NCBI GenBank assembly: GCA_903840355.1
Contig: CAIMFJ010000005.1
Span: 372,001-436,000 of the forward strand
DNA: 64,000 nucleotides
Direction of reading: 5' to 3'
Source of the DNA: an uncultured Opitutia bacterium
Lineage (GTDB): Bacteria; Verrucomicrobiota; Verrucomicrobiia; Opitutales; UBA953
Positions 23,906 to 60,106 of this stretch are shown one piece after another (position 1 is the first letter of the stretch; each line of letters begins with the position of its first letter). Below the pieces are notes generated by a model that saw only the letters and a list, made by a program, of their open reading frames with translations, was not told where the DNA came from and did no database searches. The position numbers were made by a program, and so were the translations under genes.

Positions 23906-23906
23906 T

Positions 23907-31500: not shown

Positions 31501-31505
31501 GGGAG

Positions 31506-34500: not shown

Positions 34501-34709
34501 TCATCCCCCTTTAGGACAAAATCGCGGGCATCGAGACGGAGACTGGCCTTTTGCTTCTTCTCCCCGTGGCATTTATAACAATTTTCGACGAGAACCGGAC
34601 GGACTTCCTTTTCAAAAAACTCCAATTGGGCAGCCGTCGGCACAGGCCCCTCTGCCAGACCAGTCAAAGTCAGGGTAAAAGAGAAGAAGATGCCAAGACG
34701 CGACCACAT
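31506..34709 (-). CDS. Planctomycete-type c-haem protein, PSCyt1-DUF1549-DUF1553 (copy 2)
   Basis: A 1067-residue exported protein from ATG 34709 (the frame is open to a TTG at 34730). Signal peptide 1-20; PSCyt1 with CYKCH at 44-48 and EPMPGEDDKLSPRAIAAI; DUF1549 with LTLWGVSPTDDEIQAFV, RWGRHWLDVARYADTKGY and the second haem site [12 protein letters not shown] at 338-342; DUF1553 with NPLTARVMVNRVWNQVFGQ, MNQGWSMKKLIRTMVLSATFRQ and TTPQQALWMINHPFVRSL. Unlike copies 1 and 3 it lacks the large mid-protein insert but carries about 180 beta-rich residues near its C-terminus (NGVGGWNAVTKQVSFTPM through FTWSPVIKDAKTGEVV), placed inside the end of DUF1553. First gene of the minus-strand run, partner of the DUF1501 gene 5 bp downstream. 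Confidence 0.9.
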   Translation of the reverse strand: MWSRLGIFFSFTLTLTGLAEGPVPTAAQLEFFEKEVRPVLVENCYKCHGEKKQKASLRLDARDFVLKGDEVGEVVVPGHPEASRLIKAINHVKAKDVEPMPGEDDKLSPRAIAAITEWVKQGLPWPAEAAPVAHDPRQHWAFQPVKAPALPEVKAKERVKTSLDYFVLAQLEHEGLSLSPEVPKEVLAKRLYLTLWGVSPTDDEIQAFVHDTNPQATEKLVDQLLANPAFGERWGRHWLDVARYADTKGYVFEEERRYAYAYTYRDWVVAAFNRDLPYDQFLRLQIAADRLVTGEDNHDLAALGFLTLGRRFLNNQQDIIDDRMDVVMRGTQALTMGCARCHDHKFDPIPTTDYYSLYAVFNSSEEPKEKPLLKPFTPTKDSQEFDQELARLEAKASDMVKARYEGSFSLEKTTAYLTILNRSFLEKGLNVDLETKRQALYPPVYHGWEKALSTHLKPNDAVGGFWWQLREVPEAQFAFKAKELLANPVGLDPVLLENLKAKPLLKFTDVLAAYAQTLVNARGKSEVAPQKIWASFWSAEGGPLSPKPESLIASYSVPDVQGYRKLVREAEAYKATSPKSPPRAMVMQDKPNPVNGTVFLRGNAGRPGKSVPRQYLAILSSTTRQPFQHGSGRLDLANAIADKNNPLTARVMVNRVWNQVFGQPLVETPSDFGVRTPAPRNPALLDHLASDFMNQGWSMKKLIRTMVLSATFRQSAAITNVNKDPDNSLLSHMNRRRLDFEAMRDSMLRLSDRLDFKTGGQPFDLIGDFTNSRRTVYGFIDRQNLPSVFRTFDFANPDYHVPKRNQTTTPQQALWMINHPFVRSLSDSLAQRFAKLPTAEQQVTSLYRKVLGRNPTTQELKLAVDFLREEALLPVPSSWQNGVGGWNAVTKQVSFTPMKVNLKGRLTPTDQFPDPFYGHAMLTSAGGHPGNHETEAVIRRWNASTAVTVKIEGDLHVPSKVSQGVRARIVSSVRGLLGEWTVVGGETKSVTLPSVALAPQEVIDFILDDWKGPNSDGFTWSPVIKDAKTGEVVSSAAGEFGQVSQVQTPLSALAQVLLECNEFNFAD

Positions 34710-34829
34710 GAATAAGTACTTAACAGCCAACTTGTAGCGAGGTTCCTTTTAGGGTCAAACTTGGTCATATAAAACCCGTCATTTCTTTTGCAACCTTTGC
34801 CCATTCAAGCCGTCTATATAGCCATCCCC
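34710..34829. promoter_or_regulatory. Divergent promoter region of two sugar-oxidation units
   Basis: 120 bp between the eight-gene minus-strand run and the plus-strand NPCBM/dehydrogenase gene. It holds an AGGTTCC (34740-34746) and a GCAACCT (34790-34796), which are the two halves of the palindrome found upstream of the third haem-protein gene at 60107-60122. A TATAAA at 34768-34773 could serve the plus-strand gene. No clear Shine-Dalgarno sequence precedes the ATG at 34830. Confidence 0.35.
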
Positions 34830-37800
34830 ATGCCCACCACCCCCCTTAAGTCTCGTTTAAGCCTTGGTGTAACCGCCGCAGCCTTCCTCTTAGCCAGCCC
34901 CATCCTGACCTGGGGCCAGAAAGCCAAAGACGCTGAAGCGCCTATCGCCCAATCGGCAGACATCACCACCCATAGTAAAACGCGCCTCTCTGACCTCACG
35001 GCCGACCTCCATGGAGCCAAAGAGCTCTACCTGATGGTCTCCGACCTAGGAGATAATAATTGCGACTGGGCGGATTGGGTCGAGCCCACGCTCACGACCG
35101 CCGATGGTCGCACGCTTAAACTAATCGACTTGAAGTGGAAATCCGCCACCTCCGCACACGGCCAAGTGATGATCGGCAAAAATAATTCCAATGGCCCGCT
35201 GTCCGTGGACGCTAAAGTTTACGCCAACGGCATCGGCACCCATGCGAACTCCCTAATTGCTTATGATCTGCCGGAAGGGGTCGTAAGCTTTAAAGCTAAG
35301 GTCGGCATTGACGATGGTGGCTTTGAGCGCGGTGGCAAACGTTCTCCCGCCTCGGTGCGCTTCTTGGTGTTCACCAGCAAACCTAAAGAATTTCCTGCGG
35401 GTGTGATGGACAGCGGTCCAACCCTGGTGCCACCCGAAATGTTTACCGTGGCCGATGGTTTAGAAATCACGGTGTGGGCCACTTCGCCTCAATTGTATAA
35501 CCCAACGAATATGGACTTCGACGAGAAGGGTCGACTCTTCGTCGCCGAGGGCGTGAACTACCGTGGCAAAGCCGGACGACGCAAAGAAGGCGACCGCATC
35601 GTTGTCCTCGAAGACACCACGGGTGCAGGTAAAGCCGATAAGACCACCACCTTTGTACAAGAAACTAACTTGGCTGCTCCCTTGGGTGTCGCCGTCATCG
35701 ACGGCAAAGTCATCGTCTCGCAACCCCCTGATTTAATTGTCTACACCGACACTAATCGTGATGGCGTTTTTGATGCGAACACCGAAAAACGGGAAGTCTT
35801 GCTCACGGGGTTTAATGGCCGACAACACGACCACAGCTTACACAGCGTCACCGTCGGGCCCGATGGTAAATGGAACTTCAACCAAGGTAACACCGGGGCA
35901 CAATTCACCGATAAAGCAGGGCGCCATTTCTACATGGGTAGCCCTTACATGCTCGGCAACATCGCCGGCAAACGCAGCGATGATGGCAATATCTGGATTG
36001 GCGGTTTCTCGGTACGCATGAATCCAGATGGCTCCGACCTTAAAATCGTCGGTCACAACTACCGTAATAGCTACGAGCAATCCGTGAGTTCGTTCGGCGA
36101 CATGTTCCAGAGCGACAACGACGACCCACCCGCTTGTCGAGTGAGCGTCGTTATGGAAGGCGGCAACGCTGGTTTTGCTTCGGCCGATGGTAAGCGTTCT
36201 TGGGGTGCCGATAAACGCCCTGGTCAAGACACTCCCACCGCAGAATGGCGCCAAGAAGATCCGGGCACGATGCCAGCTGGCGACGTGTATGGTGGTGGCG
36301 CGCCTACTGGAGTCGCAATTTATGAAAATGGTTCCTTAGGTGATAAATGGAATGGCCTGCTCTTGGCCTGCGAATCGGGCAAGAATGTAGTCTACGGTTA
36401 TTTCCCCAAAGCCCAAGGTGCGGATTTTAAATTAGAGCGGTTTGATTTTCTCACCTCTAACACTCAAAAACAATGGGCGGGCTCGGACTTCATCGGCGGA
36501 CCTTCGATGGGGGCGTTGCATACCTATTTCCGCCCTGCCGATGTGTGCGTGGGACCAGATGGTGCCATTTACGTTGCAGACTGGTTTGACCCTGGCGTGG
36601 GAGGTCACGGCACGCGGGACAATCGATACACGGGCACGATTTATCGCATCGCCCCCAAAGGCTTTAAATCCGTAGTCCCCAAGATCGACCTCAATACCAC
36701 CGAGGGACAATTATTAGCCCTACAAAGCCCAGCGGTGAACGTTCGTGCCGGCGGCTTCTACCGACTCCGTGCTCAAGGAGCGGCCGCGATTCCTGCCGTC
36801 TCAACCTTACTCCATCACGCAAATCCATATGTCGCTGCTCGTGCGGTTTGGCTCTTGACCCAACTGGGAGAGCAGGGCGCTAAACTGGTCCAATCGGAAT
36901 TAACCTCTACTAATGATACCCGCCGTCTCGTGGCCTACCGAGCCCTGCGTGCCGCTAACTACCAAGTTATGGCGATGGCTACTAAAATGGCACGGGATGC
37001 CTCACCGGCGATTCGTCGCGAAGTCGCCCTGACGATGCGCGACTTTAAAACGCCTGAAGCCGTGGCGAATCTGGCTACGGCAGCAGAGCAATTCGATGGG
37101 GTAGATCGTGCCTACCTCGAAGCCATCGGCTTAGGCTCCACTGATCGTGAAGCCCAAGTCTACGCCGCCATTACGGCCAAGATGGGCAGCGAACCTGCGC
37201 AATGGAGTAAGGCTTACGCCGCACTCACTTGGCGCTTACACCCTCCTCAGTCAGTCGAAGGGGTCCGCGCACGCTTACTCTCCGGCAAACTCACCCCAGC
37301 AGAATCCAAAGTCGTGCTAACAGGACTCGCTTTCACCACGAGCGCTGCTGCCGCGAATACGATGGTCGAATTAGCCCTCGACAAAAACTTCGTGCACCAC
37401 GACCTCGCCAACTGGTGGCTCATGAATCGCAAAGGAAATGACTGGAAACCTTATGACGTGGAGAAACTCATGAAGTTGCGCGGCCTTTACGATCCCGACA
37501 AAGTCGTGCTCCATGGCTTTGAACTCCCCCCCGAACCCGCCGACGCCAAACCGTTGTCTTCCGTCGAAGTGATTAGTAAACTAAAGGGCGACCCCGAACG
37601 CGGCAAAATGGCCGTCAATGTTTGCTACACCTGCCACCGTATCGGCGAACAGGGCGTAGATTACGGTCCCAACTTAACTAGCTACGGACGCCAGCAATCT
37701 ACTGAAACCATCGTCCTCGGCATCTCGCAACCCTCCGCCGAAATCTCCCACGGCTTCGAAGGCTCGCGCCTCGTAACCACCGACGGGATTATCATCACGG

Positions 37801-37985
37801 GCATGCTCCTCTCCCAAGGGGACCCCGTATTCATGAAGTGCATGGGAGGGGAAGTGCAGACCGTTCCGCGGGCGCGCATCAAAGAGATCAAGCCTTTGAC
37901 CCGCTCCTTAATGTTTTATCCCTCGCAGTTGGGTCTCACCGACCAAAGCGTGGCCGATATCGCCGCCTACCTCAAAAGCCTCTAA
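34830..37985 (+). CDS. Exported NPCBM/PVC-type dehydrogenase/HEAT/c-haem multidomain protein
   Basis: A 1051-residue protein from ATG 34830 (a TTG at 34788 extends the frame but lacks signal-peptide character). Signal peptide about 1-30; NPCBM-type carbohydrate-binding domain (about 45-190) with LYLMVSDLGDNNCDWADWVEPTL and ANGIGTHANSLIAYDLPEG; a beta-propeller PVC-type membrane-bound dehydrogenase domain (about 210-610) with NMDFDEKGRLFVAEGVNYRG, VGPDGKWNFNQGN, GGFSVRMNPDGSDLKIVGHNYRNSYE and VGPDGAIYVADWFDPGVGGHG; HEAT-like repeats (about 620-880); and a C-terminal haem domain with CYTCHRIGEQGVDYGPNL, CYTCH at 932-936. Such proteins are presumed periplasmic sugar oxidoreductases with built-in electron transfer. 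Confidence 0.88.
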   Translation: MPTTPLKSRLSLGVTAAAFLLASPILTWGQKAKDAEAPIAQSADITTHSKTRLSDLTADLHGAKELYLMVSDLGDNNCDWADWVEPTLTTADGRTLKLIDLKWKSATSAHGQVMIGKNNSNGPLSVDAKVYANGIGTHANSLIAYDLPEGVVSFKAKVGIDDGGFERGGKRSPASVRFLVFTSKPKEFPAGVMDSGPTLVPPEMFTVADGLEITVWATSPQLYNPTNMDFDEKGRLFVAEGVNYRGKAGRRKEGDRIVVLEDTTGAGKADKTTTFVQETNLAAPLGVAVIDGKVIVSQPPDLIVYTDTNRDGVFDANTEKREVLLTGFNGRQHDHSLHSVTVGPDGKWNFNQGNTGAQFTDKAGRHFYMGSPYMLGNIAGKRSDDGNIWIGGFSVRMNPDGSDLKIVGHNYRNSYEQSVSSFGDMFQSDNDDPPACRVSVVMEGGNAGFASADGKRSWGADKRPGQDTPTAEWRQEDPGTMPAGDVYGGGAPTGVAIYENGSLGDKWNGLLLACESGKNVVYGYFPKAQGADFKLERFDFLTSNTQKQWAGSDFIGGPSMGALHTYFRPADVCVGPDGAIYVADWFDPGVGGHGTRDNRYTGTIYRIAPKGFKSVVPKIDLNTTEGQLLALQSPAVNVRAGGFYRLRAQGAAAIPAVSTLLHHANPYVAARAVWLLTQLGEQGAKLVQSELTSTNDTRRLVAYRALRAANYQVMAMATKMARDASPAIRREVALTMRDFKTPEAVANLATAAEQFDGVDRAYLEAIGLGSTDREAQVYAAITAKMGSEPAQWSKAYAALTWRLHPPQSVEGVRARLLSGKLTPAESKVVLTGLAFTTSAAAANTMVELALDKNFVHHDLANWWLMNRKGNDWKPYDVEKLMKLRGLYDPDKVVLHGFELPPEPADAKPLSSVEVISKLKGDPERGKMAVNVCYTCHRIGEQGVDYGPNLTSYGRQQSTETIVLGISQPSAEISHGFEGSRLVTTDGIIITGMLLSQGDPVFMKCMGGEVQTVPRARIKEIKPLTRSLMFYPSQLGLTDQSVADIAAYLKSL

Positions 37986-40846: not shown

Positions 40847-43800
40847 ATGAAATTCCGTTTGCTCCTATTATTAGTGGCTTCTGTGGTCGTAGCCGCCCCC
40901 CTCAAAGTTGTTGTGGTAAGCGATCAGGATAGCATCGGCGCCAGCCTCAGGGCGGCCCTGGTCAAAGGGGGTGCAGAGGTCATGCAAAAGAAAGTCCTCG
41001 AGGCCAACGACCTTAACCAAGCCGACGTCACCTTATTGTATCAAACAGACTTCAAACCCTACAGTGCGGATGCCCAAAAGGCCCTAGCGGATTTTGCCAA
41101 AAAAGGGCATGGTCTCGTCGTCATCCACGGAGCACTCGCCGGTCTGGAAGCAGGGTGGAGTAAAGAAAACCTTGGTGCGAGCTGGAATGCCGACAGTCAA
41201 AAATTCCATGACATCATCATGATGAATTTACGAACGGACTCGCACCCGCTCACCCAAAGCATGTCTACGTTCGATGTGACGGATGACACGGTCTATGACC
41301 TCAGCTTTAACGAAAAAGTTTTCGTCCTCTGCTCTTCGTTCACTCCCAAAGTCACTAACAGCAAAAAGAAAGCGCTGAATGACCGCATTTCCGTTTACGA
41401 CATCGAACCCCAGTGGTGGGCACTGGAAGCACCCGATCACCGAGCCGCGGTTTTGTTACAAGGCGATGCTCAAACGCTCCAACACCCCAGCGTGGTTACC
41501 TACTTAAAACGAGCCGTGGCTTGGACGGCCCACCGCACTGAGGTTAACGAACTATGCAGCGCGACGGATTTAGCCGATTTGCGTTATCCCGTGGGCGGTC
41601 CGCGCCGTCCCAAGGATGCCATCGCCCAATTTAAATTACAGCCGGGCTTCAAAACCAGCGTCCTTTGCAGCGAACCTTTAATCAATAAACCCATCGCCAT
41701 TCAATGGGATGAAAAGGGCCGTCTGTGGGTCGCCGAAACACCCGAGTACCCGAACGGTCGCCGCCCCCTGACCGCAGACTCTTGGAAAGAAACCGGCGTC
41801 CTCGTGCCTGGTAGTTACGATCGCCCCGCCCAAGATAAAATCTCCGTGCTCATCGATTCACAGCACCGTGGCGTCTTTGATAAGAAAGTTATTTTCCATG
41901 AAGGCCTCGAACTCATCACCGGCTTCTGCTTCTACCGCGATGGCGTGATTGCCGTAGCCCAAAACGGCATCTATTGGCTCCGCGACACTAAGGGCACGGG
42001 CAAAGCCGATCAGGAAATCCTTCTCTACGGCGGTTTCCGCCCCGGGGACACCCACTTCGTACCCAACCACTTCATCGTGGCTCCCGACGGCTGGATTTAC
42101 GCCTCGAATGGCGGCGGTGCCTTGGCTACGAACGGCAAGACCGGCGAACTGATGGCCAAAATTAGTCCTGGAACTTTCCGGTTTAAGCCTGACGGTTCAG
42201 CGATTGAACAAGTCGCCTCGCAAGGTGGTAACAGCTTTGGCAATGAAGTCACCAGCGACCTTGAACTCTACCATGGTAAAGCGACTAACGGCAACCCCGT
42301 GCAACACGTCGTTCTCCCTGAAACTATTTTAGCTAAAGTTCCTGGCACGAACGCCAAAGCGTTCCACTCCGTCAACCCTGGTCGTGCCGTGGCCCGCACT
42401 GACATGCCCGACCGTGCTCCTTTAATGCAAATTGACCAAGTAGGTCACTACTCCGCCGGTTGTGCATGTTCCGTTTACGAAGGAGGCGCTTGGCCCAAGG
42501 AATACAACGGGACGGTCTGGATGACCGAGCCCATCCTCGACGTGATTCACCATGAAAAACTGAACCTCAACGGGGTTACGTATGAAGGTGAATTAATGCT
42601 CCAAGGCCAAGAATGGCTACGCTCGATGGATCAATGGTTCTGTCCGATTGACGTTTCTTTCGGTCCAGATGGGGCGATGTATATTTTAGACTTCTACACC
42701 GCCGTCGTAGCGCACAACGACACGCGTGGTCCGATGCATAGCAAATCAGGCGCCTCGGTCCGCCCTGACCGCGAACACTACTTCGGTCGCATCTACCGCA
42801 TCCAACATGACCAAGCTCCGAGTTTGGTCCACCCCGACCTCACCACGGCCGATGCCGTGGGCTTAGTCGAAGCCTTTAAGCACCCCAGCAAAGTGGTGCG
42901 CTTTAATGCCATTCGCGTGCTCATGGATCGCGATGCCGCAACACAGCAAACGGCGGTCGCACCTTTAGTCGAACTCGCCCAAAGCCTAGCCATTCCTGAA
43001 GCCCGCATTCAAGCACTCTGGGCCCTACAACGTCTGGGCAAGCTCGACCAAACGTTGCTCGCCCAAGCAGCCAAGGATAGTAATGCCTCCGTTCGGAAGA
43101 ATGTTTTTCTGATTGCTGAGGCCGGTAAAATCGCATTGCCGACTGCAATCTTCAAGGCGGGCTTAAGCGATGAAAATGGCCGCGTCCGCCTCGCAACCCT
43201 TCGTGCCATGGGCACCGCCCCCTTAAGTGCCGATGCCGGTACCTTACTCCTCGAAAGCCAAAAGACTTTTAACGACGACTGGTCCAAGGCGGCTGCGGCG
43301 GCCGCCGCGGCTTCGAATCCCGTGCCCACGATTGAAGCCTTACTGTCTGCGGATACCACTCCGCAAAATATTAATGAAGTGGCAGGCTTCCTCAAAAGCC
43401 TCTCCGCCAGCCTAGCGGGCGCTAATGACCCCGCCGGCAATTTACGTGCCCTCGCTGCCGCCGCGAAATGCGCCGACGGACACCTGGCCACCATCGTCTT
43501 ACGTGAATTGGCTGACCGCAAAGCGGTTACGCCAACCGATCGGGCCAGTACGCAAGCCCTACTGCAGACCGTTCTTAGTATTAAAGATATCAAGGAAGCA
43601 GGCACGGGAGCTTCGCTCACCGTCGCTTGGGGCTTTAATCAAGCCCTGCAAAGCGAATTAAACACTCTGGGGGCTCGACTCATTCAACCCTTGCAAGACA
43701 GCAACCTATCTAACTCGGTTCGGGCCACCGCCGGCATCACGTTGGTGGCTTTGCGTGATAATCAACCTTCGTTCGCCAAGGCCATCCATGACGCACTCCT

Positions 43801-45946
43801 TGCGGTAGACACACCCGAAGAAGTTAAACGTGCCCTGATTGATGCCTTAGTTGCCACGAATGACGTCAAAGTAGGTAGTCTTTTAATTGAGACTCTCCCC
43901 AAAACTTCCGGCATCCTGCGCAACTCGCTCTTTGCCGCTTTAGTAACGCGGACGGATTGGGCACAACTCATCTTAAATGCCCTCGAGGCGAAAAACCTTT
44001 CACCCCTTTCCCTCGGGCCTATCCAAATCTCGCAACTGACCCGTCACCCTGACGATGCCGTATCCAAACGAGCGGCAGCAGTCTTGGCTAAACTTAATGC
44101 GGGCTCTAACCCCGCTAAGGATGAAATCATCAATCGCCTCCGTCCCCTAGTCGAAGAAAAAGCTGGTGACCCTGCTAAGGGTAAAGAACTCTTCACGTCA
44201 ACCTGTGCCGTATGCCACAAAGTAGGGGAGGTCGGAAATGAATTCGGGCCCAACCTTCAAGGCATCGGATCTCACCCCGTCGTTGAACTCTTAGTGCACA
44301 TCATCGACCCTAGTCGCATGGTCGATGACGAGCACCGGACGTGGAATTTCAAAACCAAAGACGGCACTTTATACTCCGCCATCATCGCCAGCGAAAATAA
44401 TTCCGTGGTAAAACTTCGCCAACCCGGCGGGATTATCATCGAGTTAAAGCAATCCGACATCGCAAGTCGCCAACGCATCGAGACGTCGCTTATGCCGGAA
44501 GGTTTTGAAGCGCTCGGTGCCGAAGGCTTACGCAACATCATTGCTTACCTCAAAAGCGTGGCCGTGACCGCCAACGGGATTACCGTTGGTCGCTTCCAAT
44601 TACTAAACCTCAGCAATGCCTTCACGGCTGACACCCGCTGGGGCTTATACGCCTCGCGCCAAGCCCGGTCGGACACGTTGCCCTTTATCAAGTTTGGCCA
44701 AATCACAGCTAATGGCATTCCTTTTGAAGTGATTGATCCTGCACAGACCAAGGATGGGAAAAATGTCATTGTGCTTAAAGGCGGAGGTAAAGGCAGCTTC
44801 GCCCACAGCCTAGCCCAAAGCGTAGAAATCCCCGTGGGCACGGCCGCAACGCGTTTGCACTTGCTCGGGGGAGTCGGTGGTTGGGGCAGCCATGGAGATG
44901 GTCAAACCGTCGCCATGACGGTCGACATCCATTTCCTCGATGGCAAAACTCAATCCGTCAAACTCTACGCTAACCGCGACTTTACGGATTACTTCGGACG
45001 CGATGGCAATGTTCCAGGTTCGAAACTCGTCGAAGGTGTCCTCAAAGATCACCAAGTACGCACCCTCGTGATTCCGGTAGAAAATGTCGCCGTTATCGAA
45101 AAAGTCGTGCTGTCCAGTCCTGACAACCAAGTTGCACCGACCACCGTAGCCATCACGGCCGAAATCGGAGGCGATCCCAATCCACCTCGCAAAGAATCAA
45201 AGTCAGCAGCTGGCAAGAAAGCCGTGGAAACGCTGAATTCCCCCAATACCACCATGGCGTTCGGGCAACACTTCGCCACACGCCAAGCCGGCGTGCAACG
45301 CGTCCTGCTCTTAGGTGCCGGCAGTTCGCACGATTTCCCTAAATTCTTCCTAGGCCAAGATGCGGCCACGATTAAAGCTACCAGCAAATATGACACCGTA
45401 TCTTCCCCCAACCTTGCTGAAGCGCTAGCCCTCTTGCCAATGGCTGATCTGCTGGTCTTCAGCGGCAACCACGCCCAATACGGCACGGCGGAATTCCAAA
45501 CGGCGCTCAATGCTTTCGCTGATGCAGGGAAGGGCATTGTGATTGTGCATGCAGGTGCTTGGTATAACTGGCCCGCAGCCTCCAATTACAACGACCGTTT
45601 CGTGGCCGGTGGTGCACGCGGACATGGTCACAGCGAATTCACCGTGACGGTCACCAAACCTGAACACCCGATTCTTCAAGGTGTCCCGGGGACCTTTAAA
45701 ATCATGGATGAAAGTTACCAAACGGTTTTAAGTCATCCCGAGAACGCCGAGATTCTGGCCACGCTTCCTGGACCGGCCTTGAAGGGCCAGCCTGGCCCAA
45801 CGCAAACCTTCCCGACAGTGTGGATCGTCAAAGACAGCCACACCCGCATTGTCAATATCACCCTAGGACATGCGCTGGAGGCACACTCTAACCCTGCTTA
45901 CCAAACTATCCTGTTGAACGCCCTGCAGTGGGTCTCCCAAAAATAA
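40847..45946 (+). CDS. Giant exported ThuA-dehydrogenase-HEAT-c-haem-ThuA fusion protein
   Basis: A 1699-residue protein from ATG 40847 (a TTG four codons upstream is less likely). Signal peptide 1-17 (LLLLLVASVVVAAP). Domain order: ThuA-like (about 18-230, VVVVSDQDSIG, GHGLVVIHGALAGLE, HPLTQSM); PVC-type dehydrogenase beta-propeller (about 260-640, PIAIQWDEKGRLWVAETPEYPNGR, GFCFYRDGVIAVAQNGIYWL, FGPDGAMYILDFYTAVVAHND); HEAT-like repeats (about 650-1090); c-haem domain with CAVCHKVGEVGNEFGPNL, CAVCH at 1120-1124; a beta-sandwich of NPCBM-like character (about 1240-1410); and a second ThuA domain (about 1435-1699, GSSHDFPKFF, GIVIVHAGAWYNW, GARGHGHSEFTV, HPILQGVPG). ThuA is linked to 3-keto-trehalose-type metabolism in rhizobia. 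First gene of a tight four-gene operon (6-8 bp gaps). Confidence 0.88.
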   Translation: MKFRLLLLLVASVVVAAPLKVVVVSDQDSIGASLRAALVKGGAEVMQKKVLEANDLNQADVTLLYQTDFKPYSADAQKALADFAKKGHGLVVIHGALAGLEAGWSKENLGASWNADSQKFHDIIMMNLRTDSHPLTQSMSTFDVTDDTVYDLSFNEKVFVLCSSFTPKVTNSKKKALNDRISVYDIEPQWWALEAPDHRAAVLLQGDAQTLQHPSVVTYLKRAVAWTAHRTEVNELCSATDLADLRYPVGGPRRPKDAIAQFKLQPGFKTSVLCSEPLINKPIAIQWDEKGRLWVAETPEYPNGRRPLTADSWKETGVLVPGSYDRPAQDKISVLIDSQHRGVFDKKVIFHEGLELITGFCFYRDGVIAVAQNGIYWLRDTKGTGKADQEILLYGGFRPGDTHFVPNHFIVAPDGWIYASNGGGALATNGKTGELMAKISPGTFRFKPDGSAIEQVASQGGNSFGNEVTSDLELYHGKATNGNPVQHVVLPETILAKVPGTNAKAFHSVNPGRAVARTDMPDRAPLMQIDQVGHYSAGCACSVYEGGAWPKEYNGTVWMTEPILDVIHHEKLNLNGVTYEGELMLQGQEWLRSMDQWFCPIDVSFGPDGAMYILDFYTAVVAHNDTRGPMHSKSGASVRPDREHYFGRIYRIQHDQAPSLVHPDLTTADAVGLVEAFKHPSKVVRFNAIRVLMDRDAATQQTAVAPLVELAQSLAIPEARIQALWALQRLGKLDQTLLAQAAKDSNASVRKNVFLIAEAGKIALPTAIFKAGLSDENGRVRLATLRAMGTAPLSADAGTLLLESQKTFNDDWSKAAAAAAAASNPVPTIEALLSADTTPQNINEVAGFLKSLSASLAGANDPAGNLRALAAAAKCADGHLATIVLRELADRKAVTPTDRASTQALLQTVLSIKDIKEAGTGASLTVAWGFNQALQSELNTLGARLIQPLQDSNLSNSVRATAGITLVALRDNQPSFAKAIHDALLAVDTPEEVKRALIDALVATNDVKVGSLLIETLPKTSGILRNSLFAALVTRTDWAQLILNALEAKNLSPLSLGPIQISQLTRHPDDAVSKRAAAVLAKLNAGSNPAKDEIINRLRPLVEEKAGDPAKGKELFTSTCAVCHKVGEVGNEFGPNLQGIGSHPVVELLVHIIDPSRMVDDEHRTWNFKTKDGTLYSAIIASENNSVVKLRQPGGIIIELKQSDIASRQRIETSLMPEGFEALGAEGLRNIIAYLKSVAVTANGITVGRFQLLNLSNAFTADTRWGLYASRQARSDTLPFIKFGQITANGIPFEVIDPAQTKDGKNVIVLKGGGKGSFAHSLAQSVEIPVGTAATRLHLLGGVGGWGSHGDGQTVAMTVDIHFLDGKTQSVKLYANRDFTDYFGRDGNVPGSKLVEGVLKDHQVRTLVIPVENVAVIEKVVLSSPDNQVAPTTVAITAEIGGDPNPPRKESKSAAGKKAVETLNSPNTTMAFGQHFATRQAGVQRVLLLGAGSSHDFPKFFLGQDAATIKATSKYDTVSSPNLAEALALLPMADLLVFSGNHAQYGTAEFQTALNAFADAGKGIVIVHAGAWYNWPAASNYNDRFVAGGARGHGHSEFTVTVTKPEHPILQGVPGTFKIMDESYQTVLSHPENAEILATLPGPALKGQPGPTQTFPTVWIVKDSHTRIVNITLGHALEAHSNPAYQTILLNALQWVSQK

Positions 45947-45952
45947 GTTTCT

Positions 45953-47965
45953 ATGTATCGTTCGTTGCTTTGCCTGTCTTTGCTCTCCCTCAGCCTCTGG
46001 GCTGATGGACCCAAAGATAACTTACCTGATGCCGTCCGACCGATTCCGCCTCCAGGCATGCCGGTACCGGAGTCGGAAAAGAAAATCATGCAACAAGGTC
46101 TAAGCGAACTTCGGGTGGCGATTGATAACGCTACGAAAGCCCAAGCCAAGAATCCCCGCTTAGAGGAATTACTTCCTGACATTGAGATTTACTACAAAGC
46201 CGTCGATTGGGCGATGCGCTACAACGAGTTCTATAAGAACACGGAATTTAAAACTGCCAGTGAACTCATCCTTGAAGGCAAAGCCCGTGCGTCCGCTTTC
46301 TACCACGGTGATCACCCTTGGACGGAACAAAAGGGCTTAGTCTTGCGAGCATACCGTTCCCGCATTGATGGCTCCATCCAACCTTACGGCATGGTCATTC
46401 CCGAGAACTACAGTGGAGCTCCGATGCGACTCGACTTTTGGTGTCACGGGCGCGGCGAAAACCTGAGTGAACTCGCTTTCGCCCAAGATCGTCGCAAGAA
46501 TATCGGCCAAATCCCGGCCAATAACCGCTTAGTACTCCATCCTTACGGACGGTACTGCTGTGCCAATAAATTCGCCGGAGAAATTGATCTTTGGGAAGCT
46601 TACGAGCACGCCCGCAAATCTTATGCCATCGACGAGGATCGGCTCTTTATTCGTGGCTTCTCCATGGGAGGCGCCGCCGTCTGGCAATTCGGAGCTCACT
46701 ACACCGACCGCTGGTGTGCGATTAACCCTGGGGCCGGTTTCGCCGAGACGCCCCACTTCCTAAACATCTTCCAAGCGGAGGATCTTTCCAAGATTCCAAC
46801 CTGGCAGCAAACGCTCTGGTCTTGGTATAACGCCACCGACGTTGCGGTTAACTTCTCGAACGCTCCCACCATCGCTTACAGCGGCGAAATCGATAAACAA
46901 AAGCAAGCGGCGGACATCATGGCGAAGCAGTTACGCGCTGAAAACATCGAACTGGTTCATATTATTGGCCCCCAAACCGCCCATAAAATCCATCCTGACT
47001 CCATGGCTGAAATCGAACGTCGTCTAGACTCGATTGCGACCATTGGTCGCGACCGCACGCCGCGCGAAGTTAGTTTTGCGACTTATTTTCTTCGCTACAA
47101 CCGGATGCATTGGGTCGAAATTAATCGTCTCTTCACGCATTGGGAACAGTCGCGCATTCAAGCAGCGGTCGACAGCGAAAACCTCGTAAGCGTCAAAACT
47201 GTCAATATCGCGGCTTTCACCTTAGACATGACGTCAGGGCATTCGCCCTTATCCCAACATGGGAAAGTAACCGTTCGCATCGACGGGCAAGACCTCGATG
47301 CCCCACGTCCCGCCTCAGATCGCTCCTGGACGGTACACTTCACGCGCAACAACCCGAACGGCAAATGGACCTTGGTGAAAGAATTTACCGATGTAGGTTC
47401 AAAACAACACGGTCTGTCTGGACCGATTGACGATGCATTCATGGATGCTTTCTTGTTTGTTTCGCCCACTGGCAAACCCCTGTTTGAAAAATCGGGAGCC
47501 TGGGTGAAGTCTGAACTCGAACGCGCTAACTGGGAATGGCGCCGTCAATTCCGCGGTTTTGCCCCGATTAAACCTGATCGCGACATTACCGATGCGGACA
47601 TCGCTAAAAATAATTTAGTCCTCTGGGGTGACCCCCAGAGCAACGCAATCTTGGCTAAAATCATCAACAAACTCCCCATCAAGTGGAATGGCACTCAGTT
47701 AGTCGTTAACGAGAAAGCGTATAGTCCGGAAGATCACCTGCCCGTGATGATTTTCCCTAATCCGTTAAACCCCCAAAAGTACGTCGTGCTGAATAGCAGT
47801 TTCACTTATCGAGAATACGACTACCTGAACAACGCCCGCCAAGTGCCTAAACTCCCTGACTGGGCCGTGATTAATTTAAAGACCCCTGCCAACAGCCAAG
47901 CCCCTGGAGGGATTGATGAAGCTGGATTCTTCAACGAAAGCTGGAATTTTAACCCCAACCGCTAA
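45953..47965 (+). CDS. Exported alpha/beta hydrolase, prolyl-oligopeptidase-like
   Basis: A 670-residue secreted hydrolase. Signal peptide 1-17 (LCLSLLSLSLWADG), a helical N-terminal segment, then an alpha/beta hydrolase fold: LDFWCHGRGENLSELAF (oxyanion region), ANNRLVLHPYGRYCCANKF, DRLFIRGFSMGGAAVWQFG with nucleophile Ser237, TIAYSGEIDKQKQAADIM with a candidate acid residue and PQTAHKIHP with the His. The about 300 residues after it include a beta-rich part (VKTVNIAAFTLDMTSGHS, VTVRIDGQDLD) and end in KLPDWAVINLKTPANSQAPGG. Families of this layout in PVC bacteria are annotated as peptidase S9-like but probably act on esters or glycans. Overlap-free in the operon, 6 bp after the giant fusion gene. 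Confidence 0.78.
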   Translation: MYRSLLCLSLLSLSLWADGPKDNLPDAVRPIPPPGMPVPESEKKIMQQGLSELRVAIDNATKAQAKNPRLEELLPDIEIYYKAVDWAMRYNEFYKNTEFKTASELILEGKARASAFYHGDHPWTEQKGLVLRAYRSRIDGSIQPYGMVIPENYSGAPMRLDFWCHGRGENLSELAFAQDRRKNIGQIPANNRLVLHPYGRYCCANKFAGEIDLWEAYEHARKSYAIDEDRLFIRGFSMGGAAVWQFGAHYTDRWCAINPGAGFAETPHFLNIFQAEDLSKIPTWQQTLWSWYNATDVAVNFSNAPTIAYSGEIDKQKQAADIMAKQLRAENIELVHIIGPQTAHKIHPDSMAEIERRLDSIATIGRDRTPREVSFATYFLRYNRMHWVEINRLFTHWEQSRIQAAVDSENLVSVKTVNIAAFTLDMTSGHSPLSQHGKVTVRIDGQDLDAPRPASDRSWTVHFTRNNPNGKWTLVKEFTDVGSKQHGLSGPIDDAFMDAFLFVSPTGKPLFEKSGAWVKSELERANWEWRRQFRGFAPIKPDRDITDADIAKNNLVLWGDPQSNAILAKIINKLPIKWNGTQLVVNEKAYSPEDHLPVMIFPNPLNPQKYVVLNSSFTYREYDYLNNARQVPKLPDWAVINLKTPANSQAPGGIDEAGFFNESWNFNPNR

Positions 47966-47972
47966 AACTTTT

Positions 47973-49754
47973 ATGCCGATTATTTCGGAGCAAAATTTAC
48001 GCGATGATTACGATGTCATCGTCGTGGGTTCAGGGGCAGGGGGAGGGCAATCCGCCTTCACCTTAACCATGGCCGGAGTCAAAGTGCTCATGCTGGAATC
48101 GGGTCGAAACTATGACCCGCTCACCGAGACAGCAATGTTCCAAACTCCCGACCAAATGCCGCTGCGTGGCATTTCTACGGTCGAGAAGCCTTTTGGCTTT
48201 GCGGATGCGACCGTTAACGGTGGTTGGCAAGTTCCCGACGAACCCTACACCCAAGCCAATAACAAGCCCGAAGAGCGTTTTTGGTGGTGGCGGGCACGCA
48301 TGTTGGGGGGGCGTACTAATCACTGGGGTCGTATTTCGCTGCGCAACGGTCCTTACGACTTCAAACCATACTCACGCGATGGTTTGGGCTTCGATTGGCC
48401 CATCGCTTACGAAGACGTGACTCCTTATTACGACAAAGTTGAATTACTCGTGGGCGTCTACGGTTCCAATGAAGGTCTCGAAAACACGCCCGACTCGCCG
48501 AACAACACGTTGCTGCCTCCGCCCAAAGCCCGCGCCGGTGAACTTTATTTTAAAAAGCATGTAACACCATTGGGGATTCCCGTGATTCCAATTCACCGGG
48601 CCGTGCTCAGCACGCGCCAAGATCACACTACCATTCCTCAACGCCTCTTCCCGCAAAATCCCACCGCTCAAAAATTAACGGCGGAGTCGATGAAAGCCCG
48701 CGCCGCTTGTTTCTGGGCCACGGATTGCGGACGCGGTTGCAACATTCGCGCTAACTATCAGTCGACCACGGTTCATTTGCCTCCAGCATTAGCCTCTGGC
48801 AATCTTGACATCTTACCCAATGCCCATGCCCGAGAAGTGGTACTTAACGAGCAAGGCAAAGCGACGGGTGTCACTTACATCGACAAAACAACTGGCAAGG
48901 AACGCACCGTCAAAGCCCGGGCAGTCATTTTAGCCGCTAGTTCAGGCGAGACGGCCCGCATTCTGCTCAACTCTAAGAGTGCGAAGCACCCTGATGGCAT
49001 CGCCAATTCCAGTGGACTCGTCGGCAAGTACATCATGGACACCGTCGGGGCGGGCCTCGGCGGACGCGTTCCGGCGTTCGAAGGCTTGCCGCTGCACAAT
49101 GAAGATGGTGCCGGTGGCCACGTCTACGTTCCTTGGTGGCTCTACCAACAGCAACACGCTGGTAAACTCGATTTTGCCCGCGGTTATCACATTGAATTTT
49201 CTACCGGACGTCATGCCCCGAACCTCGGAGTCGCGGGCCCTGCTGGCCCCGGCTATGGCTCCAAGTTTAAAGAAGAACTACGCCGCACCTATGGTTCCTT
49301 CATCGGTTTCTCCGGACGTGGTGAAATGATTCCGAACAAAGATTCCTACTGCGAATTAGATCCCGAGGTAAAAGACAAGTGGGGAATCCCAGTGCTTAAA
49401 TTCCACTGGAAGTGGTCGAGCCATGAGATCAATCAAGCCGCTCACATGCAAAAGACCTTTGCTGCTATGATTGAGGCGGCGGGCGGCATACCCAACCGTG
49501 TTGAAACGGGGGAAAAAGCCATTAAGCCCGGTGGCTTCATCATCCACGAAGTCGGGGGTGGTATCATGGGAGCAGATAAAAATAAATCCGTCACCAATCG
49601 CTGGAATCAATGCTGGGACGTCCCGAACCTTTTACTCAACGACGGTTCGGCCTTCTGCAGTAATGCCGATAAAAATCCGACGCTGACCATCATGGCCCTC
49701 GCCTGGCGGGCCTGCGATCACTTGATCGAAGAAATGCGCCAAGGAAACCTTTAA
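47973..49754 (+). CDS. GMC-family FAD oxidoreductase (glucoside/gluconate dehydrogenase large subunit-like)
   Basis: A 593-residue FAD oxidoreductase from ATG 47973; an earlier in-frame ATG (47913) would overlap the previous gene by 53 bp. The FAD-binding GSGAGGGQSAFTLTMAG (19-35) and LESGR are followed by MLGGRTNHWGRISLRNGPYDF (GMC signature region), DCGRGCNIRANYQS, RAVILAASSGETARILLNS, and a C-terminal GMC_oxred_C domain with SAFCSNADKNPTLTIMALAWRACDHL. It resembles the large subunits of gluconate-2-dehydrogenase and glucoside-3-dehydrogenase, which need a subunit-3 partner and a c-haem acceptor. Such a subunit is the next gene, 7 bp downstream. No signal peptide of its own, so it may be exported by riding with its Tat-signal partner. 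Confidence 0.9.
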   Translation: MPIISEQNLRDDYDVIVVGSGAGGGQSAFTLTMAGVKVLMLESGRNYDPLTETAMFQTPDQMPLRGISTVEKPFGFADATVNGGWQVPDEPYTQANNKPEERFWWWRARMLGGRTNHWGRISLRNGPYDFKPYSRDGLGFDWPIAYEDVTPYYDKVELLVGVYGSNEGLENTPDSPNNTLLPPPKARAGELYFKKHVTPLGIPVIPIHRAVLSTRQDHTTIPQRLFPQNPTAQKLTAESMKARAACFWATDCGRGCNIRANYQSTTVHLPPALASGNLDILPNAHAREVVLNEQGKATGVTYIDKTTGKERTVKARAVILAASSGETARILLNSKSAKHPDGIANSSGLVGKYIMDTVGAGLGGRVPAFEGLPLHNEDGAGGHVYVPWWLYQQQHAGKLDFARGYHIEFSTGRHAPNLGVAGPAGPGYGSKFKEELRRTYGSFIGFSGRGEMIPNKDSYCELDPEVKDKWGIPVLKFHWKWSSHEINQAAHMQKTFAAMIEAAGGIPNRVETGEKAIKPGGFIIHEVGGGIMGADKNKSVTNRWNQCWDVPNLLLNDGSAFCSNADKNPTLTIMALAWRACDHLIEEMRQGNL

Positions 49755-49761
49755 TCCGACC

Positions 49762-50433
49762 ATGTCCGACTTTAACCCTGAACCTGTGAACCGTCTGCCT
49801 CGTCGCGAAGCCCTCAAGTGGCTCGCGACGGCGGCGGCGGGTCTTAGCCTAGCCCAGCTCGATGCGGCCTCCCCCACGATTCCCCCGAGTGGCACCCCTC
49901 CGTTTGCTCCTCATGGTAAACGCATTGGGGCTGATCCCGTCTTAAATAAAACCTATCACCCCGGCGAGCTGTGGCCGCTTTCGTTCACCGTAGAACAACG
50001 TGCCGCCGCGGCGGCACTGGCTGACCTGATTACTCCACCTGAAAAAGGAGACTTACCGCCTTCGGCCCTGGGCGTGCCAGATTTTATCGATGAATGGATT
50101 AGTTCGTACTACGATGAAACCATCAAAGACCGCCCGATTATTTTAGAAGGCTTAACCTGGATCGACCAAGAGAGTCAGCGTCGTTACCAAAAAGTTTTCG
50201 CCCAACTTAGCCTCGAACAACAAAGTGCGATTGCCGATGACATCTGCGGCGTGAAACCCGTGAAGAAAGAACTGCGGCCGCAAGAAAACTTCTTCAAACG
50301 CTTCCGCCACCTCGCAGCAGGGGGTTATTTCACGACCCCGCAAGGCATGCGCGACCTCGGCTATCGCGGTAATCGACCCAGTGCGACCTTTGAGGGGCCG
50401 ACCCCAGAAGCCCTCCGCCACCTCGGCTTATAA
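49762..50433 (+). CDS. Gluconate-2-dehydrogenase subunit-3-like protein with Tat signal
   Basis: A 223-residue small subunit. A twin-arginine signal LPRREALKWLATAAAGLSLA (Arg14-Arg15) is followed by the gluconate_2-dh3 domain: FTVEQRAAAAALADLITPPEKGDLPPSALGVPDFIDEWIS and later RYQKVFAQLSLEQQSAIADDICG. In known systems it escorts the signal-less GMC subunit through the Tat pathway and is needed for activity. Its place directly after the GMC gene fits that hitchhiker model. The stop meets the convergent PL9 lyase stop with a 1-bp gap. Confidence 0.9.
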   Translation: MSDFNPEPVNRLPRREALKWLATAAAGLSLAQLDAASPTIPPSGTPPFAPHGKRIGADPVLNKTYHPGELWPLSFTVEQRAAAAALADLITPPEKGDLPPSALGVPDFIDEWISSYYDETIKDRPIILEGLTWIDQESQRRYQKVFAQLSLEQQSAIADDICGVKPVKKELRPQENFFKRFRHLAAGGYFTTPQGMRDLGYRGNRPSATFEGPTPEALRHLGL

Positions 50434-50434
50434 T

Positions 50435-51709
50435 TTACTTAGCAGCCGGGAAAGCGGTGTAACCCAATTCCCCGAGCTTATCGGTGGCCTTGGGTTGCAG
50501 GAACCCGGTCTTGGGTAAACTGCCATCAGGGGCGCGTGGCCCAGTCAGCAAAGCTTCGTCTACGTTCACAAACATGTCTTCCGTCAGCTTTAGCCCTAGG
50601 CTAAAGCTGTTGGGCTTGCCGTTGATATCATCAGCCAGATGGGTGACCAAACGGCCCTTAAAAGCCAAATTATACATAATCACGTGACCAGCCCCTTCAA
50701 TGTCCTTCGCATTATCAGGGGTACGCTCTAAGAAGTTAAAATTAGTACCATTCCCGGTCGCCGAATTATAAAACCAATCGCCCCCCCCCAGGTGGTGGTT
50801 GGCATAGAAGCCGCTGGCTTTATTGCGGACCGCTAAGCAACCGCGGACGATGTGACGGGGGACCACTTTGGGCAAACGCTCTACGGGGGTCGCACCGTAG
50901 CCACCGGCTTTAAAACCATTACCGTCCCCTAACTTTTCGAATTTCGTACCGTAGCCATTATACATGGCCCAGCATTGCTCAAACACCACGACCTCTTGAG
51001 CGGAGATGCAATCGTAGCCGTCATCGCTATTGAACCACGCACGGCAGCCGCGGAAGACATTGTCAATCGAACCTCGCGTCGGGTGACAGCCAAAACCGTC
51101 TACATTACCCCCGCGGTGATCTTCCGACGTGTAGTCGTAATTATTATAAGCGTCGCAATTAAGGAATAAATTATGAGCCCCGCTTAAGGCGTAAATCCCG
51201 ATGGCTTGGCTATCATGTAAACTCAGTCGCTCAAAAATATTATGACTCCCGTGATTCTCCACCGAACACGATTGCCCATGCCCCATGAAATTGACTTGGA
51301 CACCAATCACTTCGAAGCCGCGGAAGTGCAACCAAGAGCCCATTACTTGAAAGGCGTTGATACGGACGTCGGGCGTCTTGATAGCGGAAAAGTCAAAAAC
51401 GGGGTGTTCATCTTTGTAAGCCCAATAACGAATGGGGGCTTCGGCCGTACCGCTCTTATTGAAATAATATAAATAAATCCAAATGCGCTCCGCCCGTGCT
51501 AACTGGGTTGCGGGGATTTTATAGACCCCCCCGCGCAGCCAGACCGTGTCCCCCGGGTTAGCCAGTTCCTGGGCCTTCTGTAGCCCCGCCAAGGGCTTTT
51601 CCAGGGTGCCTGCGGCAGCATCATCCCCATTAGGGGCAACAAAGATCTCTTTGGCCTGCAAGCAGGGCAGGAAAGCCGAAAAAAACCACAGCAGGCAAAT
51701 ACGGTGCAT
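50435..51709 (-). CDS. Exported pectate lyase-like protein, polysaccharide lyase family 9
   Basis: A 424-residue secreted right-handed beta-helix. Signal peptide 1-19, then KEIFVAPNGDDAAAGTLEKPLAGLQKA and GDTVWLRGGVYKI, the usual start of these lyases. The residue pattern fits PL9 pectate lyases such as Dickeya PelL: Asp204 (GNVDGFG), then Asp229-Asp230-x2-Asp233 (NSDDGYD) as calcium ligands and Lys267 (GNGFKAGG) as the catalytic base; in PelL as I recall these are Asp209, 233, 234, 237 and Lys273, with nearly the same spacing. It would cleave polygalacturonate by beta-elimination. A run of nine G bases on the coding strand (50781-50789) encodes LGGGD. It follows the Tm-1-like gene on the same strand (37-bp gap). 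Confidence 0.85.
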   Translation of the reverse strand: MHRICLLWFFSAFLPCLQAKEIFVAPNGDDAAAGTLEKPLAGLQKAQELANPGDTVWLRGGVYKIPATQLARAERIWIYLYYFNKSGTAEAPIRYWAYKDEHPVFDFSAIKTPDVRINAFQVMGSWLHFRGFEVIGVQVNFMGHGQSCSVENHGSHNIFERLSLHDSQAIGIYALSGAHNLFLNCDAYNNYDYTSEDHRGGNVDGFGCHPTRGSIDNVFRGCRAWFNSDDGYDCISAQEVVVFEQCWAMYNGYGTKFEKLGDGNGFKAGGYGATPVERLPKVVPRHIVRGCLAVRNKASGFYANHHLGGGDWFYNSATGNGTNFNFLERTPDNAKDIEGAGHVIMYNLAFKGRLVTHLADDINGKPNSFSLGLKLTEDMFVNVDEALLTGPRAPDGSLPKTGFLQPKATDKLGELGYTAFPAAK

Positions 51710-51746
51710 GACTTAACGGAGTCGGCTTAATGAAAGAAATCAACCT

Positions 51747-52952
51747 TTACCGCTGGGCCTGCATCAAACCGATGAGTTTACGGGCACAGGCTTGGGCAAA
51801 CTCGGGCTGGTTAATTTCTAGGTCAAACTCCTCCACCGGCAACTTGGTCTCGGCTTTCAGTGTGCTAAACAACGCTTCATCCGCCGCGGCATCATGGAAG
51901 GGCTGGCCAGGGGCACTAATGACACTAATCGCTCGACGGGGAATCATTAAAGCGGCCGGCGCGGTGTAGCGGTTAATTTTTTCGGCGATGATTTTGCCTA
52001 ATTGCTGAGACTCCGCCACGCTGGTGCGCATCAACGTTATTTGGGGATTATGCTGATAGAATAAACGTCCCGCAAAGCGTTCGGGCACCGAGGCACGTTC
52101 CCCAAAGTTCACCATATCAAGGCAGCCTGGGGCAATCACAGCGGGGACCCGGGCTTTAGCCACGGCATCCAATCGTTCCGGGCCAGCGGTGAGGACTCCG
52201 CCCACTAATTCATCCGCCCATTCCGTTGTGGTGACATCCAAGACACCTGCGACGATGCCACTTTCAATGATACTTTCCATGATCCGACCCCCGGCGCCCG
52301 TAGCGGCAAAAACTAAAACTTCGTAACCCGCGGCTTCCAAAACTTTCTTTGCTTCTGAAATACAAGCAGTTGTATTGCCGAACATACTCGCCACGACCAA
52401 GGGCTTGGCCGCACCCAAGACTGGCTCACTTTCAACCATGCCACAAATCGCCCCTGCGGCCCGGGTAAAAATCACACGAGAGAGCCGATTCAAACCAGCG
52501 ACATCGGCAATACTTGGCATCATCGTGATATCCTTGGTCCCGAGGTAGGGTGCCACGTTGCCAGCCGCGAGGGTTGAGACCATCAATTTGGGAAAACCTA
52601 AGGGGAGGGCCCGCATCGCGGCCGTGGCAATCGCCGTTCCGCCACCACCACCCAATGAAATCACCCCTTGAATTTTACCTTCAGCGACTAACTTAGCTAA
52701 AAGTCGCGGGGCGGCCTGCGTCATGGCAATGACACACTCTCCGCGGTCTTTTTTGGCCATGAGTTTGGCCAAATCGAGACCGGCAGTTGCCGCGACTTCT
52801 TCGCGGGTAACGGCGGGTACTACGGTAGGTGGCCCAACTGTGCCCACATCAATCAATAAAGCCTGATGTCCACGTTGCTGAATTAACGCCGCCAGAAAAG
52901 CGTGCTCTTCACCCTTGGAATCCAGAGTGCCTAGAACTGCAATCGTGGCCAT
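51747..52952 (-). CDS. Tm-1-like ATP-binding protein (UPF0261)
   Basis: A 401-residue cytoplasmic protein of the UPF0261/Tm-1-like family: IAVLGTLDSKGEEHAFLAAL, QGVISLGGGGGTAIATAAMRALPLGFPKLMVST, YLGTKDITMMPSIADVAGLNRLSRVIF, ASMFGNTTACISEAKKVLE, VFAATGAGGRIMESIIESG, DVTTTEWADELVGGVL and PAVIAPGCLDMVNFGE. In tomato Tm-1 the same domain binds ATP and blocks tobamovirus replication proteins, but the bacterial function is unknown. It lies 13 bp downstream of the TIM-barrel gene, and the two together equal the two halves of plant Tm-1. The pectate lyase gene follows. Confidence 0.88.
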   Translation of the reverse strand: MATIAVLGTLDSKGEEHAFLAALIQQRGHQALLIDVGTVGPPTVVPAVTREEVAATAGLDLAKLMAKKDRGECVIAMTQAAPRLLAKLVAEGKIQGVISLGGGGGTAIATAAMRALPLGFPKLMVSTLAAGNVAPYLGTKDITMMPSIADVAGLNRLSRVIFTRAAGAICGMVESEPVLGAAKPLVVASMFGNTTACISEAKKVLEAAGYEVLVFAATGAGGRIMESIIESGIVAGVLDVTTTEWADELVGGVLTAGPERLDAVAKARVPAVIAPGCLDMVNFGERASVPERFAGRLFYQHNPQITLMRTSVAESQQLGKIIAEKINRYTAPAALMIPRRAISVISAPGQPFHDAAADEALFSTLKAETKLPVEEFDLEINQPEFAQACARKLIGLMQAQR

Positions 52953-52965
52953 AACAAGATCTCGT

Positions 52966-53838
52966 TTAGAAGAATTTCCGCTTCACCGGAATCTGTTTAA
53001 AGCGGCGCGTCAGATCCGTGAGTGATTGCTCTACGGCCATCCGCTCTAAACTCGAAGCTCCCACGAAACCATCGGTGTCCGTGTGTTCGTTGATATAAGC
53101 GGCATCTTCAGGCGTGTTGATCGGGCCACCGTGACTGAGATAAATCATATCGGAACGCACCGACTTAGCCGCATCGATGATAGCTTGGGTCTGCTTCGCC
53201 GCCTCGGCCAACGACATCGTGGCATTGGTTACGCCAATAGAGCCGCCTACCGTAGTACCTACGTGAGCAATGATGACATCCGCCCCCGCCTTCGCCATCG
53301 CTTGGGCTTCCGCGGGCGAACCGACGTAAACAATGGTGAAGAGATCCATCTTTCGGGCCAGGGCCACCGTCTCAAATTCCTTCTGCACGCTCATACCCGT
53401 TTCTTCAAGAATCTGGCGAAACTTACCATCAATGATGGTGTGGGTCGGGAAATTGTTAATCCCGCTAAAGCCCATGTCTTTAACTTTACCGAGCCAGTGC
53501 CACATCCGCCGGCGAGGGTCGGTAGCATGGACCCCGCAAATCACGGGAATCTCTTCGACTACAGGCAGCACCTCATACTCCCCAATCTCCATCGCCACGG
53601 CATTAGCATCGCCATAAGCCATCATCCCGGCCGTCGAGCCGTGGCCAGCCATCCGGAAACGTCCGGAATTATACACAATCACCAAATCCGCCCCGCCGCG
53701 TTCAATAAATTTCGCACTGATGCCGGTGCCAGCACCGGCCGCAATAATGGGCTGCCCCTTCGAGATCGTGTTCCGCAGGCGCTCAATCACTTCGGTGCGC
53801 GTGTAAGGGTTACCTTTTCCAGTCCAGGGGTTTGGCAT
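52966..53838 (-). CDS. PEP-hydrolase-family TIM-barrel protein
   Basis: A 290-residue TIM-barrel of the phosphoenolpyruvate hydrolase-like family (Pfam PEP_hydrolase). Family segments are RTEVIERLRNTISKGQPIIAAGAGTGISAKFIERGGADLVIVYNSGRFRMAGHG in parts, EIPVICGVHATDPRRRM, GFSGINNFPT, AGADVIIAHVGTTVGGSIG, and YLSHGGPINTPEDAAYI. ATG 53838 is taken as the start; a TTG lies six codons upstream. It is the first gene of a unit with the Tm-1-like and pectate lyase genes, divergent from the Dabb gene. The reaction in bacteria is not established. Confidence 0.87.
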   Translation of the reverse strand: MPNPWTGKGNPYTRTEVIERLRNTISKGQPIIAAGAGTGISAKFIERGGADLVIVYNSGRFRMAGHGSTAGMMAYGDANAVAMEIGEYEVLPVVEEIPVICGVHATDPRRRMWHWLGKVKDMGFSGINNFPTHTIIDGKFRQILEETGMSVQKEFETVALARKMDLFTIVYVGSPAEAQAMAKAGADVIIAHVGTTVGGSIGVTNATMSLAEAAKQTQAIIDAAKSVRSDMIYLSHGGPINTPEDAAYINEHTDTDGFVGASSLERMAVEQSLTDLTRRFKQIPVKRKFF

Positions 53839-53866
53839 AGTGAACTTAAACTTCAATAATTAGGGC

Positions 53867-56933: not shown

Positions 56934-56937
56934 GGGA

Positions 56938-60072: not shown

Positions 60073-60106
60073 TGTATAGCACAATCAGACAATTTACCTG
60101 CGTTTT

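Follow-up and report, generated by a model that had tools for sequence, protein, structure and literature searches.

The window (the whole stretch of 64,000 nucleotides analysed here, from an uncultured Opitutia bacterium) encodes a redox protein with an export signal and a ThuA domain at each end, and the genomes that carry this fusion family also carry, without exception, genes for the UPF0261 and PEP_hydrolase-like families. This exceptionless association is the new point of our analysis, the double-ThuA fusion itself being an established architecture of its class. We propose that the fusion is a self-contained periplasmic enzyme that oxidises a sugar or glycoside and then processes the product, as part of a new oxidative glycoside pathway, a proposal to which we give an even chance.

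The whole fusion, 1699 residues long, is encoded by a single open reading frame on the forward strand (40835 or 40847 to 45946). Homologues from the same genus align with it over nearly their full length at 58–66% identity, which rules out a chance reading frame or a chimeric assembly, and the near full-length homologues found across many genomes also exclude a frameshift. The reading frame of one genus copy (G016:C17:25271-27103) is broken by TGA and TAG codons and by frame shifts, through either sequencing error or decay. On the forward strand, the signal peptide (residues 1–17, MKFRLLLLLVASVVVAA, 40847..40897), whose hydrophobic N-terminus is kept in relatives, is followed by a first ThuA domain (ThuA1, residues 18–236, 40898..41554), a six-bladed DUF7133/TIGR02604 propeller with a fold like that of PQQ sugar dehydrogenases (residues 255–655, 41609..42811), a HEAT-repeat region (residues ∼673–1090, 42863..44116), a TIGR02603 c-type haem domain (residues 1107–1237, 44165..44557), a beta-rich domain (residues 1243–1446, 44573..45184) and a second ThuA domain (ThuA2, residues 1484–1698, 45296..45940). 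Pfam profiles recognise both ThuA domains, DUF7133 (255–655), HEAT_2 (PF13646, 673–753) and Cytochrom_C (1110–1142), whereas NCBIfam places TIGR02604 at 267–655 (196.3 bits for a cut-off of 122.2) and TIGR02603 at 1107–1237 (117.3 bits for a cut-off of 68.15) in the same chain. PF02985 also matches the HEAT-repeat region, the remainder of which was delimited from its position and from alignments. The arrangement given in the initial annotation, a redox core with a ThuA domain on either side, is confirmed.

The core, its order and its haem domain are identical in kind to those of the PVC-type heme-binding CxxCH proteins (TIGR02604 plus TIGR02603, or DUF7133-HEAT-cytochrome c), to which the fusion adds a ThuA domain at both ends and the beta-rich domain before ThuA2. 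This last domain, about 204 residues long and conserved in at least 21 relatives, has no match in Pfam and no sequence match in the PDB. It was modelled poorly, with low confidence, so that its absence from the fold searches is uninformative on its fold. A second TIGR02604 protein of 1065 residues (NPCBM-DUF7133-HEAT-cytochrome c, 34788-37985) is encoded 3 kb upstream of the fusion. Elsewhere in the window, ORFs of about 480 residues lie beside ORFs of about 1040–1074 residues at 22466-27023, 30064-34730 and 55479-60084; one of the three smaller ORFs is a confirmed DUF1501 protein and another clusters with a DUF1501 ORF. Paired exported gene families are common in PVC bacteria, and these three pairs resemble them.

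The fusion family was found in 44 of 286 genomes sampled across the class, distributed over 15 families. Both ThuA ends are reached in one open frame in 34 genomes, and blastp on the fetched loci added four more (G154, G195, G238 and G271), bringing the complete architecture to at least 38 of 286. A sparser sample of 240 genomes across the phylum yielded 10 genomes with the fusion, all in the class of the window. The architecture can therefore no longer be called unusual, as it had been at the outset; nevertheless, we found no description of it in the openly licensed literature.

Natural variants of the fusion were also recovered. The beta-rich domain is missing from three of them (L074, L076, L078) and ThuA2 from two others (L069, L088). 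At locus L070, ThuA2 is a separate gene downstream, and at L118 it is the upstream neighbour of a protein made of ThuA1 and the core. Conversely, L122 (5876-7417) and L123 (6633-8267) encode ThuA1-ThuA2 tandems of 513–544 residues without the redox core, whose halves are 52% identical to the ThuA1 type and 80% identical to the ThuA2 type, in genomes that also carry UPF0261 and PEP_hydrolase genes. These tandems, together with the neighbouring ThuA2 genes, indicate that the two ThuA domains are partners. A more distant arrangement occurs in a Gemmatimonadetes locus (L042, 1801-5418 and 1-693), where the C-terminal domain of a protein of the order ThuA-DUF7133-HEAT-CBM is a plastocyanin-like cupredoxin in place of a c-type haem domain. 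Adjacent to it are a free ThuA2-type protein and a PEP_hydrolase-like gene recognised by its likeness to that of the window. This locus (27% identity) had been considered as a candidate double-ThuA fusion and was rejected, the ThuA domains being on two separate genes. The variants keep the same parts in other arrangements, which supports the idea of a working set.

The nature of the propeller was addressed by structure comparison, using models (six sequences) of mediocre quality, with a mean pLDDT of 59 for the N-terminal model and of 56 for the other. The 16 structures that best aligned with residues 261–657 are all PQQ sugar dehydrogenases or their homologues. The soluble glucose dehydrogenase (sGDH) of A. 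calcoaceticus aligns with a Z score of 22.6 (302 residues, rmsd 4.6, 20% identity) and AA12 enzymes with a Z score of about 21.5, aldose sugar dehydrogenases being also among the best matches; the hedgehog-interacting protein scored 19.4 and unrelated propellers 18–19. Foldseek agreed with this result. sGDH, the AA12 pyranose dehydrogenases and the aldose sugar dehydrogenases are thus the closest folds, but they share only about 12–20% identity with the propeller and none carries a ThuA domain or HEAT repeats. No Pfam PQQ family matched the propeller in 25 relatives, which gave only DUF7133 and weak matches of NHL-type and other families, and the propeller profile had no meaningful match among the sequences of the PDB. 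The propeller contains a DTHxV...GxDGWIYxxxG motif that may resemble the catalytic-histidine stretch of sGDH. The haem domain carries the only CxxCH motif of the fusion, CAVCH (residues 1120–1124), and a conserved methionine, Met1216, within SLMPEGF; both cysteines, the histidine and Met1216 are invariant in 40 of 40 relatives. The replacement of this domain by a cupredoxin in L042 fits a role of the haem module as electron acceptor.

The main counter-evidence to oxidation comes from Lac161_ORF7, a Chthoniobacter TIGR02604-HEAT-cytochrome c protein that, once purified, was reported to act as a beta-galactosidase, releasing glucose from lactose with a Km of 1.8 mM and a kcat of 13.2 per s (PMC5342196). 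It shares its core domains with the fusion and acts on a disaccharide, but it is a 109 kDa protein for which no ThuA domain was described. The propeller core could, by analogy, be a glycoside hydrolase that releases sugars directly, with the haem and the ThuA domains in accessory or regulatory roles. We consider this quite unlikely: such a reading depends on one ThuA-less protein whose published assay followed glucose release and not oxidation (PMC5342196), the best folds for the propeller are PQQ dehydrogenases, and neither an invariant c-type haem nor its cupredoxin substitute in L042 would make much sense in a hydrolase. A sugar-oxidising propeller remains the reading that we retain.

The two ThuA domains differ markedly. 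In a genome scan with PF06283 (cut-off 33.4 bits), the C-terminal domain scored 90.7 bits and the N-terminal one 54.3–55 bits. All 26 tested relatives of ThuA1 were ThuA by Pfam, so that the possibility that the first region is not ThuA was discarded. Residue conservation was counted over 40 relatives and, for ThuA2, over the 37 in which it is present. The ThuA2 signature (H1495, H1568, W1572, N1582, H1593, D1621, E1622, Y1624, G1674, H1675 and H1680) is conserved in 37 of 37. The corresponding polar pattern (H, HxxxW, N, DExY, GH) is complete in the window, and is mostly common to 4E5V and partly to 4JQS. ThuA2 superimposes on 4E5V with a Z score of 21.6 (209 aligned residues, rmsd 2.6). The ThuA-like structures 1T0B, 4E5V and 4JQS/4PXY (PF06283) have its fold (Z scores of 20–21.6) and most of its signature residues in common; however, they are free-standing proteins without an assigned function, whereas the ThuA2 of the window is part of a fusion. 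Outside the genus of the window, ThuA1 retains H94 and E147 in 30 of 30 relatives and the GH histidine (GH207) in 25 of 30. Inside this genus (n = 8), the polar signature is lost, with H94 found in two sequences, E147 in one and the GH histidine in none. The GARGHGHSEFTV loop had correctly been noted as present in the second ThuA only, and this difference points to the decay of ThuA1 in the genus.

With one signature lost and the other whole, only ThuA2 is likely to be catalytic in the window's protein, and its ThuA1 is probably not an enzyme, judging from these residues. The initial annotation had implied two working ThuA domains, a view that the loss of the ThuA1 signature in the genus does not support. 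If both were catalytic on different steps or substrates, the chain would be a three-step enzyme. Each domain is indeed ThuA by profile, most relatives outside the genus retain the signature residues in both, and a stand-alone ThuA1-ThuA2 tandem exists; given the residue counts within the genus, we nevertheless find this highly improbable. The ThuA domains might instead serve mainly in sugar binding or oligomerisation, the protein being simply a sugar dehydrogenase linked to a cytochrome, with other enzymes acting on its product. The full-length retention of a degenerate ThuA1, the forms devoid of ThuA2 (L069, L088) and the grouping of ThuA-like proteins with the class I glutamine-amidotransferase-like folds would agree with such a role. 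It appears unlikely to us, since the polar signature of ThuA2 (His, Asn, Trp, Asp-Glu, Tyr) is kept in 37 of 37 distant relatives and resembles an active site. We therefore favour a catalytic ThuA2, for which the openly licensed literature gave no direct support in the form of a ThuA reaction.

Clustering of the neighbours of the fusion, which covered 42 loci, gave UPF0261 and PEP_hydrolase-like genes time and again; AraC regulators, a cupin and a Dabb protein were also identified. In the window, the two recurrent genes lie on the reverse strand: a UPF0261 gene of the Tm-1-like N-terminal family (51747..52952, PF06792 and PF23189) and a PEP_hydrolase-like TIM barrel of the Tm-1-like C-terminal family (52966..53856, PF09370, 360 bits). 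In all nine genus loci with enough flanking sequence (L039-L041, L081-L086), the UPF0261-PEP_hydrolase pair has the fusion and an AraC gene as neighbours; no AraC gene adjoining the fusion was seen in the window. Both families are present in 44 of the 44 genomes with the fusion family, against 18 of 242 (PF09370) and 19 of 242 (PF06792) of the others. A naive Fisher test gives a p value of about 1e-37, a figure that is inflated by relatedness and carries no phylogenetic correction; the fusion and the pair also co-vary within families f1 and f14. In 12 of the 44 genomes, no more than about 7 kb separates the PEP_hydrolase gene from the fusion. A general co-occurrence with DUF7133 was rejected as the cause of this link: among the 101 genomes with DUF7133, PF09370 occurs in 15 of the 57 that lack the fusion, compared with 44 of 44.

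In plants, the UPF0261 and PEP_hydrolase families each make up one half of the Tm-1-like proteins (PMC5028733), and the gene pair near the fusion belongs to these same two families. The pair is thereby related to a virus-resistance protein of plants. We found no description in the literature of a link between Tm-1-like families and sugar oxidation. Sugar ABC transporters adjoin the pair on plasmids of rhizobia and Paraburkholderia, where a cupin is often present as well, and on a haloarchaeal plasmid the pair is likewise accompanied by a cupin. In S. meliloti and R. etli plasmids (L124, L126), a UPF0261-PEP_hydrolase-cupin-Xaa-Pro-peptidase run is divergent from a sugar ABC transporter, and this run is possibly an easier system in which to find the substrate of the pair.

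The genes that follow the fusion in the window may bear on the fate of an oxidised sugar. An exported alpha/beta-hydrolase gene (Peptidase_S9/PHB-esterase-like, 45953..47965) starts 6 bp past the fusion stop on the forward strand and has homologues in L040 and L086. It is followed on the same strand by a GMC oxidoreductase with LacA-type domains (47913..49754, PF00732/PF05199), which has genus homologues and whose start is probably inside the listed ORF, and by a gluconate 2-dehydrogenase subunit 3 family protein of LacC type (49762..50433, PF13618, 75 bits), whose N-terminus, PRREALKWLATAAAG, is a Tat-like RR signal. LacA and LacC are likewise made of a GMC and a subunit-3 domain. The two genes occur together in the window (47913-50433) and also in L040 and L086, where the hydrolase-GMC-subunit-3 trio lies about 5–6 kb upstream of the fusion. 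When 45953-53856 of the window is compared with L040 (85-15085), the fusion gene is seen to have moved, relative to L040, to the front of the run formed by the hydrolase, GMC and subunit-3 genes.

Sister loci connect the same core to keto-sugars. In six of them (L104, L105, L106, L107, L111 and L112), a PF06439-DUF7133-LamG-cytochrome c protein, mostly with recognisable HEAT repeats, was found, and in two others (L110, L113) ThuA and PF06439 are joined to the same core. Proteins combining this core with PF06439 (3-keto-disaccharide hydrolase) sit in PEP_hydrolase and/or UPF0261 loci devoid of the fusion; the Pfam scan detected no PF06439 in the fusion of the window. Members of PF06439 include the 3-ketotrehalose hydrolase BT2157, and the use of lactose by Caulobacter through LacABC requires a PF06439 gene, a route that is genetically supported (PMC9007349). 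Our proposal resembles the LacABC and DUF1080/PF06439 route (PMC9007349) in its periplasmic oxidation followed by processing of a keto-glycoside, and in the GMC and subunit-3 genes that adjoin the fusion in the window. It differs in that ThuA takes the place of PF06439, which is confined to sister loci, and that oxidation is assigned to the propeller. The occurrence of PF06439 in the place of ThuA and the LacA/LacC-type pair downstream support the idea of a keto-sugar. The suggestion, made at the outset, that a sugar is oxidised and its keto product then processed thus receives indirect support from these two features and from the propeller fold.

Taken together, the propeller, with its PQQ sugar-dehydrogenase fold, would oxidise the sugar and pass electrons to the fused c-type haem, with the HEAT repeats as a putative scaffold, and ThuA2 would then process the oxidised (keto) sugar. 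ThuA1, intact in most relatives and decayed in the genus of the window, probably persists in a structural or substrate-binding role. Further handling of the product would presumably fall to the UPF0261 and PEP_hydrolase-like proteins, whose genes are nearby; in the genome of the window, the fusion also heads a run with a GMC/subunit-3 (LacA/LacC-type) dehydrogenase. In this scheme the domains, their conservation, the linkage and co-occurrence of the genes and the export signal are established by the analysis, from which the cofactor, the substrate, the order of the reactions, the activity of either ThuA and the part played by the gene pair are inferred. That the fusion and the Tm-1-like pair form one oxidative glycoside pathway, with periplasmic oxidation, processing by ThuA and breakdown of the product by the pair, is a tentative reading whose chances we put slightly short of even. 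The ThuA, DUF7133/TIGR02604 and Tm-1-like families are all widespread, and no reaction has been established for any of them. The union of ThuA and DUF7133/TIGR02604 in one chain, always in the company of the Tm-1-like pair, makes a concrete and testable pathway of them, and may explain why a 'dehydrogenase-like' protein has been reported as a beta-galactosidase. If true, the single pathway would assign reactions both to ThuA and to a protein family whose conservation extends from archaea to plants.
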